A stretch of DNA of 64,000 bases from Apibacter mensalis (GTDB lineage: Bacteria; Bacteroidota; Bacteroidia; Flavobacteriales; Weeksellaceae), in assembly GCF_001418685.1 (NCBI RefSeq), contig NZ_LIVM01000003.1, forward strand, positions 124,001 to 188,000. Direction: 5' to 3'. This document shows, in pieces, positions 40,410 through 43,266 of this stretch. How positions within the stretch are numbered: the first letter of the stretch is position 1; every line of letters begins with the position of its first letter. The translations under genes were made by a program, and so were the position numbers. Below the pieces are notes generated by a model. It was not told the DNA's origin and made no database searches. It saw only the letters and a list, made by a program, of their open reading frames with translations.

Positions 40410-42716
40410 TTAGCATTGTTCACGCAATTCTATTGCTGCACTTACCATTTCTATAAGTGCTTTCTCTGTTTCTTCCCACCCTCGAGTTTTAAGCCCACAA
40501 TCAGGGTTAATCCATAATTGCTCTACCGGTATGCTTTTTATTGCTTTTTGTAACAAGGAAACCATTTCCTTCTTGGAAGGTATTCTTGGAGAATGTATGT
40601 CATAAACGCCGGGACCTATATCATTTGGATATTTAAATTCTGAAAAAATGTTTAATAATTTCATATCTGATTTAGAGCACTCAATAGTAATTACATCAGC
40701 ATCCATATCTGCTATGTTTTGTATTATATCATTAAATTCTGAATAACACATATGTGTATGAATCTGTGTTTGATCTTTTACTCCGCATGAAGCAATCCTA
40801 AAAGCTTTTATTGCCCATTCTAAATATATTTTCCAATCTTTTTTTCGCAATGGAAGGCCTTCTCTAATGGCTGGTTCATCTATTTGAATAACCTTTATAC
40901 CTGCCCTTTCTAAATCCAGCACTTCTTCCCTTATGGCTAATGCAATCTGAAAACATGTTTCCTTTCTCGGTTGATCATCCCTTACAAAACTCCACTGCAA
41001 TATGGTTACAGGCCCGGTCAACATTCCTTTCACATGTTTTTTTGTTAAAGATTGTGCATACGAGGACCATTTCACGGTCATGGAATTAGGCCTGAAAACA
41101 TCTCCATAAATAATAGGTGGTTTCACACAACGGCTTCCATAACTCTGTACCCATCCGTTTTTGGAAAAAGCAACTCCTTCAAGTTGTTCTCCAAAATATT
41201 CAACCATGTCGTTTCTCTCAAATTCTCCGTGAACCAATACATCAATGCCTATTTTTTCTTGAAAACGTATTGCTTTTTCTATTTCCTTTTTTATCAACTC
41301 TTCATATTCTAAAGGAGTTATCAATCTTTTTTTCAGTTTTGATCTCCAGCTTCGAACTTCAGATGTCTGAGGAAAGGATCCGATCGTCGTCGTCGTAAAT
41401 AAAGGTAATTGCAATGACTTGGCCTGCTTTTTCTTTCGTTGTGAAAATACAGAATGTCTTTTATCTTCTACTTTTTCTATATTTCTTATTTTTTCTTTGA
41501 CTTTTTCATTATGTATTAAAGTAGATGTTTTTCTACTGGTTGCAGCGTTTTTATTTTCTTGTAATTTTTTTTGCAGTTCAGGGGTATTTTCATTTTCTGC
41601 AAGTCGTTTAAGTGTTACCACCTCATCTATTTTTTGCTTTGCAAATGCCAACCAATTTTTAATTTCTGTTGAAAGAGCTTCGGTGTCTGTTTCCAATTCT
41701 AAATCTACAGGGCTATGAAGAAGTGAACAAGATGGAGCTATCATAATACGGTCTTCACCAATTTTAGAAATTGCTTTATGAATTAGTTTCAATGATTTAT
41801 CAAAATCGTTTTTCCATATATTTCTTCCATCAACGATTCCCAATGATAACAATAATTTTTCCGGTATATTTCCTAAAATTTCATCGAGTTGTTCTGGACA
41901 ACGAGCCAAATCAACATGTAAAGCTTGTACGGGAAGACTAAAGGCTAGATGTAAATTGTCTTTTAAGCCGTCAAAATAAGTGGTAAGTATTTTATTTATA
42001 TAAGGAAATTGTTTATGGATTTCTTTATATGCATACTGGTAAGTTTCTTTAGCTTTTGCATCTAAATCCAGAGCCAGAAAAGGTTCATCGAACTGTACCC
42101 ACTCAACCCCTTCTTTTTTCAACTTATGTAATATTTCTAGATAAACAGGGAGAATATCTTTTATTAAATCCAGTTTGTTGAAGTTTTCCTCTTTTTCTTT
42201 TCCCAACAATAAATAAGATACGGGCCCAACAATAACCGGTTTGGTCTTGATGCCTGCTTTTTTGGCTTCTAAATATTCATCTATAACTTTTGTAGAAAAC
42301 AATGAAAATTTTTGATTGTTTTCAAATTCAGGTACAATATAATGATAATTGGTATCAAACCATTTGGTCATTTCCATGGCTTTTATATCAATACCTTCTT
42401 TTTGATACCCTCTTGCCATGGCAAAATATAAGTCTAATTCTGTGTTTGACTTATCCAGTATTACCTGATTATATCTTTTAGGAATTGCTCCAACCATTAA
42501 GGACATATCGAGTACCTGATCGTAATAAGAAAAATCATTAGAGGGTATCCAATCAATTCCTAAATCTTTTTGTGTTATCCAGTTTTGATGCCGGATATCT
42601 TTACTTGTTATCATCAGTTCTTCTACTGATGCTTTACCTGTCCAATATTTTTCACAGGCCTTTTTAAGTTCTCTGTCACTACCAATACGCGGATAGCCAA
42701 GATTGTGTGTCTGCAT
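40410..42716 (-). CDS. metE: Cobalamin-independent methionine synthase
   Basis: Transfers the methyl group of 5-methyltetrahydrofolate (polyglutamyl) to homocysteine without B12. 768 residues in two TIM-barrel halves. The N-terminal half starts MQTHNLGYPRIGSDRELKKA. The zinc site is in the C-terminal half: HTHMCYSEF near residues 654-657, ECSKSD, and the last Cys in NPDCGLKTRGW. The motifs LTGPVTILQWSF and QIDEPAIREGLP are complete. A cobalamin riboswitch lies upstream, which fits repression of the B12-independent enzyme when B12 is available and predicts a B12-dependent MetH elsewhere. Confidence 0.97.
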   Translation of the reverse strand: MQTHNLGYPRIGSDRELKKACEKYWTGKASVEELMITSKDIRHQNWITQKDLGIDWIPSNDFSYYDQVLDMSLMVGAIPKRYNQVILDKSNTELDLYFAMARGYQKEGIDIKAMEMTKWFDTNYHYIVPEFENNQKFSLFSTKVIDEYLEAKKAGIKTKPVIVGPVSYLLLGKEKEENFNKLDLIKDILPVYLEILHKLKKEGVEWVQFDEPFLALDLDAKAKETYQYAYKEIHKQFPYINKILTTYFDGLKDNLHLAFSLPVQALHVDLARCPEQLDEILGNIPEKLLLSLGIVDGRNIWKNDFDKSLKLIHKAISKIGEDRIMIAPSCSLLHSPVDLELETDTEALSTEIKNWLAFAKQKIDEVVTLKRLAENENTPELQKKLQENKNAATSRKTSTLIHNEKVKEKIRNIEKVEDKRHSVFSQRKKKQAKSLQLPLFTTTTIGSFPQTSEVRSWRSKLKKRLITPLEYEELIKKEIEKAIRFQEKIGIDVLVHGEFERNDMVEYFGEQLEGVAFSKNGWVQSYGSRCVKPPIIYGDVFRPNSMTVKWSSYAQSLTKKHVKGMLTGPVTILQWSFVRDDQPRKETCFQIALAIREEVLDLERAGIKVIQIDEPAIREGLPLRKKDWKIYLEWAIKAFRIASCGVKDQTQIHTHMCYSEFNDIIQNIADMDADVITIECSKSDMKLLNIFSEFKYPNDIGPGVYDIHSPRIPSKKEMVSLLQKAIKSIPVEQLWINPDCGLKTRGWEETEKALIEMVSAAIELREQC

Positions 42717-42745
42717 TTTTATAACTTTTTAAACGATTATATTAT

Positions 42746-42779
42746 AAAAAGCTCTTATTGCTAAACTTCACAATGCTTT
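42746..42779 (-). terminator. Terminator-like hairpin in the metE leader
   Basis: On the minus strand AAAGC (42775-42779) can pair with GCTTT, with ATTG/CAAT inside and a small bulge. The 3' arm runs into TTTTTAT (42742-42752). It ends about 30 nt before the metE ATG. Its 5' arm is also complementary to 42910-42920, just past the riboswitch aptamer. Candidate expression platform; not a strong stem by eye. Confidence 0.4.
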
Positions 42780-42925
42780 CTTTTTTTTATTAAAATTAAA
42801 GAAAAATTCAAAATAGGACTGACATATAAGTAAACTATCTAAGTAAATAATATATTCATGAAGTTTCTTATATCCAAATTTTATATTTTGTGATCTTGCT
42901 CTTAATCGCGAAAGCATTGTCAATT

Positions 42926-43092
42926 AAGAATAGGCAGGTCTCCTGGCTCATAACATTTTATCTACCTTCTCACCTTCATATCGGCAATGGTTTTTATTGA
43001 TAAAATTTTTACTCGTTACTTACAGTTGCGCGTCAGCTCATGATTTTCACATGATTCCCTATTAAGTCGTTTTTACACAGCACCTTATTCTT
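42926..43092 (-). promoter_or_regulatory. Cobalamin (B12) riboswitch upstream of metE
   Basis: The minus strand carries the B12-box GCCAGGAGACCTGCC (42933-42947). It also has GGTGCTGTG (about 43076-43084), an AGGGAATC segment and GAGCTGACGCGCAACTGTAAG (about 43021-43041, shown in part), all core elements of cobalamin riboswitches. The ends close as a P1 helix: AAGAATA at 43086-43092 with TATTCTT at 42926-42932, seven perfect pairs. It lies 210 nt upstream of metE on the same strand. Repression by adenosyl- or methylcobalamin is expected from known metE riboswitches. Confidence 0.93.
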
Positions 43093-43266
43093 GTTGATAA
43101 AGAAATTAAGTAAAGAACTTGTTTTATACAAAGATAAAAAACCTTTTCTTTTATTTCTTTATTTAAATAAAAATTAAATCCTGATCTCTATTTTTATATT
43201 ACTGCTATTTTTGTACTTTTATTAATATAATTCTTTTAGTTGATCTTTAGAAGATTCTTTAAGCTT

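Follow-up and report, generated by a model that had tools for sequence, protein, structure and literature searches.

A candidate B12-repressed translational riboswitch in the metE leader of Apibacter mensalis, with a P13 strand that resembles the metE start

The metE leader of Apibacter mensalis, on the minus strand of the window (the whole stretch of 64,000 nucleotides that was analysed), is read here, with confidence somewhat above even, as a B12-repressed translational riboswitch in which one strand, D, has two alternative partners. Without B12, the 5' side of P13 (strand a) would hold D, leaving the metE start relatively open so that the protein can be produced; in the presence of B12, loop L5 of the aptamer would kiss L13, P13 would close and strand a would be withdrawn from D. 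The freed D, bridged by the hairpin of strands E and F, would fold onto the AUG and the first codons and block initiation. Translation initiation in Flavobacterium hinges on low structure between -20 and +20 of the AUG, with no dependence on Shine-Dalgarno pairing (PMC6847099). Comparative evidence backs the a:D, P13 and E:F helices and speaks less strongly for D:start; we infer the direction of the switch and its translational read-out. Coordinates are collected in Table 1.

Table 1. Elements of the metE leader and gene, numbered by position in the window
Feature	Position	Strand	Basis
Cobalamin riboswitch aptamer	42916..43103	(-)	RF00174, 91.2 bits, model 1-189
TATCTTTG, likely Bacteroidota -7 promoter element	43129..43136	(-)	Sequence and conservation in the genus
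CGCG in aptamer loop L5, proposed half of the kissing loop	43029..43032	(-)	Position in the aptamer
CGCG in L13, proposed half of the kissing loop	42907..42910	(-)	Sequence
P13, phylum-wide form	42891..42922	(-)	Both sides covary
Hairpin TCTTAATTG/CGATTAAGA, alternative longer P13, from the sequence-only reading	42900..42929	(-)	Kept in the genus
Strand a: 5' side of P13, first 11-nt copy, holds start-like AATGC	42910..42920	(-)	Complementary to D
Strand D: predicted to pair with a (via 42770-42780) or with the metE start (via 42759-42774)	42759..42780	(-)	Window profile, partner swaps, folds
Strand E: 5' arm of the hairpin beside the AUG; earlier taken as the 3' arm of a terminator with its T-run	42745..42753	(-)	F:E covariation
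Strand F: 3' arm of the E:F hairpin, ends 6 nt before the AUG	42723..42731	(-)	Pairing and covariation
metE AUG with codons 2-5, which D would cover in the OFF state	42702..42716	(-)	Partner swaps, pairing in the genus, fold
metE, cobalamin-independent methionine synthase, 768 aa	40410..42716	(-)	ORF and homologues

By its aptamer, the leader is assigned to the cobalamin riboswitch family: the RF00174 score of 91.2 bits stands against a gathering threshold of 31.5, and the match covers the full length of the model, B12 box included. The complete aptamer lies upstream of metE on the same minus strand of a low-GC Flavobacteriales genome, and metE has homologues of 54-91% identity in Bacteroidota and other phyla. 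The -7 promoter consensus of Bacteroidota is TAnnTTTG; the candidate element TATCTTTG is retained as TATnTTTG in seven Apibacter leaders. Within the genus, metH is present in nine of nine genomes, which fits B12 repression of metE, and metE itself in seven of the nine. The two genomes with metH in which metE was not detected, G005 and G006, are 97% and 83% complete, respectively. The only other cobalamin riboswitch of the A. mensalis genome (L001 1501-1699, contig C2) is followed by a gene that resembles a TonB-dependent receptor; riboswitches of this type (L001 and L015) have ATATAGTTT just past P1 and its complement about 90 nt downstream (AAACTATAT in L015).

The comparison draws on metE genes gathered by scanning the proteins of GTDB genomes and by whole-genome searches. 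A box search divides their leaders into 54 with a cobalamin riboswitch and 41 without, at least three of the latter (L099, L162 and L163) carrying a compact riboswitch that escaped it. In one compact variant, L162, TTTGTGTTT before the start perfectly complements AAACACAAA in the first metE codons; elsewhere, a Flavo-1 sRNA (RF01705; L010 1271-1346) adjoins a metE without a riboswitch. Pairing was assessed in 31 leaders, most of them the single representative of a genus or deep lineage and a few genera contributing two or more. In the window profile, 20-nt windows are matched to strand a, to the start region and to F, each against shuffled queries. In the swapped-partner test, D is fixed at -72 to -37 and own partners are compared with swapped ones after removal of row and column effects; 16 control segments from the aptamer and coding sequence give a mean z of -0.07 (sd 0.90), two of the sixteen having unusable energies (N in one leader). 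The narrower D window was chosen after the window profile had been seen; with it and the many controls, this test replaced an earlier one with a wide D window, which gave low p for control segments too. The z values ignore the tree, shared ancestry being partly handled by the small number of leaders per genus.

The sequence-only reading had pointed out that ACAATGCTTTC, strand a, is a perfect minus-strand complement of GAAAGCATTGT (42770-42780), and it is. Between P1 and the AUG (216 nt), no inverted repeat with arms at least 20 nt apart is longer than 11 nt, but length by itself is weak evidence because 56 of 1000 dinucleotide shuffles of this stretch reach it; the reality of the pair rests on its conservation in relatives. 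In seven Apibacter leaders, aligned blind to structure, 68 of 77 cells are standard pairs: A. muscae (L008) has a double change from C-G to T-A, four other leaders have G-U changes, and L007 is out of register through an insertion. The sequence between the two copies is barely alignable in these seven leaders, yet the copies are kept. Across Bacteroidota, the pairing is kept and covaries, with a z of -4.4 for own against swapped partners in the 31 metE leaders, -3.8 without Apibacter and -3.2 when the most divergent genus is also removed; among 13 leaders with a divergent P13, z is -3.7. Cases include AATGTCTT with AAGACATT (L065), CTTTGC with GCAAAG (L069) and CAACTACTCTC with a D that contains GAGAGTTG (L157), while the pairing is weak in L061, L147, L074 and L083. 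The 129-nt distance between the arms, earlier called unusual, is no obstacle since the intervening stretch can fold locally, and its length varies in relatives. Judged by comparison of leaders, a:D is a real, conserved and covarying long-range element.

Leaders of the Chryseobacterium group (L063, L064, L066, L150, L152, L153 and L154) span 300-740 nt from the B12 box to metE, against about 210 nt. The additional length falls after P13 and before D, leaving D, E and F beside the start.

Strand a is also the 5' side of P13, for which two versions are possible in Apibacter. The phylum-wide one pairs TGA with TCA (42920-42922 with 42891-42893) and GCTT with GAGC (42912-42915 with 42898-42901), and its two sides covary (z -5.8, swapped-partner test, 31 leaders). 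The longer one is the hairpin in which the sequence-only reading had placed the first 11-nt copy; it does lie directly after the aptamer, its arms TCTTAATTG (42921-42929) and CGATTAAGA (42900-42908) are present with one G-U pair and overlap the 3' arm of P1, and in the genus 56 of 63 cells are paired, with double changes at two positions. Strand a is paired in the short GCTT/GAGC form, whereas in the TCTTAATTG/CGATTAAGA form it is part of the loop, close to the kissing bases; the proposed logic would require no more than that a be kept away from D in the B12-bound state.

Nearly every metE leader has CGCG or CGTG after the P13 5' side, and in the Apibacter leader L5 and L13 both carry CGCG, mutually complementary. 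Experiments on the cobalamin class show that the kissing loop stabilises P13 on ligand binding (PMC10653944), and by analogy with this class an L5-L13 kissing loop is proposed for the metE leader RNA. The L5/L13 match suggests that the B12-bound state locks P13 and frees D, a direction that suits B12 repression of metE. Riboswitches with a CGCG loop are also found before other genes (L140, L145, L146, L213 and L215); as named by eye from the translations, these include a predicted acyl-CoA thioesterase-like gene (L145, L146) and a ribonucleotide-reductase-like gene (L213, L215).

The second partner of D emerges from the window profile of the 31 leaders, in which, counted back from the AUG, matches peak at -66 to -44 for strand a (t -7.4), at -60 to -41 for the start region (t -4.6) and at windows beginning at -48 to -42 for F (t about -6). 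The overlap of the first two peaks points to one site, D, that complements both a and the start, with the following strand, E, complementing F. In many leaders strand a holds AAUGC, as does the metE start, so that a single strand D can serve both. metE begins with AUGC in 47 of the 54 leaders with a riboswitch versus 5 of the 41 others, a contrast that shared ancestry inflates; three of these five are the missed compact riboswitches.

For start:D, own against swapped partners give a z of -3.0 in the 31 leaders and -2.8 without Apibacter; without L173, L075, L186 and L187 it drops to -1.8, which makes this the least secure step. Within Apibacter, 84 of 91 cells are paired, mostly invariant and with no double changes, and shuffles of single leaders are mostly not significant individually for D:start. 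Since start:D is the weakest of the helices and its metE bases are constrained by coding, it could be a by-product of conserved sequence, with a real a:D pairing read out by E:F alone or through mRNA stability. This account is quite unlikely: start:D exceeds all controls, and long perfect helices join UCGCAAUGC with GCAUUGCGA in L173, CGUAAUGCA with UGCAUUGCG in L075 and GUAUGCUUAC with GUAAGCGUAC in L186. A leader with a different start context, L199, pairs GCAAUGUC with GGCGUUGC. Because the other partner of D is the metE start region, a translational read-out is the more likely one.

Beside the start, E and F form a hairpin that covaries with a z of -7.4 in the swapped-partner test (31 leaders); 58 of 63 cells are paired in the genus, with a double change, and metE leaders with a riboswitch show stronger E:F pairing than the other metE leaders do. 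The sequence-only reading had instead made the second 11-nt copy the 5' arm of an intrinsic terminator. If so, D and E would be the terminator and a:D the antiterminator, and B12 would cause premature termination before metE. A short T-run does follow E in the window, the Priestia megaterium metE corrinoid riboswitch uses a terminator/antiterminator pair (PMC10653944), and many Gram-negative taxa reportedly have cobalamin riboswitches that terminate transcription (PMC12121620). The D-E hairpin, however, exists only weakly, and the covariation of its stem is nil (z 0.0 in 31 leaders), whereas E covaries with F; a consensus scan for terminator-like sites returns 0 sites, and T-richness 3' of E is often low in relatives. 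With no site and a stem that does not covary, the leader gives no support for the terminator, exclusive with an antiterminator, that marks transcription-terminating riboswitches. Its off-switch is probably not a transcription stop, and termination by D and E is quite unlikely. Of the earlier proposal of mutually exclusive folds, the exclusivity of two folds survives and the terminator fold is unsupported.

Termination might still enter at a later stage: translation would be the controlled step, and its block would bring on termination, at a terminator or through Rho, at another point of the leader or in early metE, which would account for a large part of the effect. At E. coli btuB, translational effects are coupled to transcriptional ones (Nou and Kadner 1998, as cited in PMC12121620). 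This variant is unlikely for the metE leader, where a simple hairpin-plus-T search gave no consistent terminator candidate across leaders. Two other uses of these strands were rejected. Pairing of the P13 3' arm with E as a second strand exchange breaks down, by eye, in L065, L069 and L077; if E:F were the sole block and B12 opened it, metE would be activated by B12, which is unlikely with metH present.

Predicted folds bear on the translational reading, in which D moves between strand a and the metE start. For the sequence downstream of P1, the unconstrained minimum-energy fold includes a:D (-41.3 kcal/mol). When P13 is forced and its loop left free, the start-covering hairpin forms without further constraint (-35.8 kcal/mol), D pairing with codons 4-5, then 2-3, then the UGC of AUGC, around E:F; forcing the longer P13 hairpin together with three pairs of the supposed terminator stem yields -25.5 kcal/mol. 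The ligand and the kissing loop would have to make up the 5.5 kcal/mol by which the a:D fold and the start-covering fold differ. Even with a:D formed, the model leaves GUUU and GCA of D able to pair close to the AUG; the start can thus be partly paired, and the ON state as modelled is not wide open. Over 41 leaders, locking P13 raises the calculated cost of opening the start by a mean of 0.89 kcal/mol versus 0.39 kcal/mol for a control block, a small and uneven effect; this accessibility calculation weakly favours the model.

In translational riboswitches of the sequestor/anti-sequestor type, two exclusive folds set access to the initiation region, as the proposed model would have it for metE. 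The Apibacter leader differs from such switches in general in that its anti-sequestor, the P13 5' side, carries the AAUGC of the start and is decoy-like, and in that the covered sequence would be the AUG and early codons. On the proposed model it resembles the P. megaterium metE riboswitch (PMC10653944) in placing a cobalamin aptamer before metE, in the L5-L13 kissing loop proposed to stabilise P13 and in the pairing of a ligand-free P13 arm with a downstream strand, leading to expression. In P. megaterium, however, the P13 3' side pairs with a terminator arm, whereas the Apibacter leader would use the P13 5' side, and its partner strand D would alternate with the start region over a long distance, with no terminator supported. 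In E. coli btuB and env8, as far as their description in PMC10653944 goes, a kissing loop stabilises P13 and translation is blocked, as is proposed for Apibacter, but there through a ribosome-binding-site hairpin via P13; in Apibacter a separate distal strand would cover the AUG and first codons. Leaders of the btuB riboswitch type have a different architecture and lie outside the comparison. The Apibacter leader would depart from the known switches in the long reach of strand D, in hiding the AUG and codons, and in its likeness to a decoy.

Genes other than metE may also have a start-like P13 strand: in L036, L054 and L055, which precede a different gene, the P13 5' side has GATGCTTTCG and the predicted start is CCAATGCTAAAAAG. 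It is an even call whether the arrangement represents a widespread Bacteroidota platform in which a P13 strand imitates the metE start context and one antisense strand picks the decoy or the real start. No description of such a platform for Bacteroidota was found in openly accessible literature, an absence that is not proof of novelty. The reading of the metE leader as a terminator is corrected, and the proposed wiring, with its named strands, is explicit and testable and recurs over many genera. To our knowledge, Bacteroidota do not use Shine-Dalgarno sites, so the sequence that a riboswitch of this phylum masks to block translation is not self-evident. The decoy platform, if true, would be a translational riboswitch built without a Shine-Dalgarno sequence.
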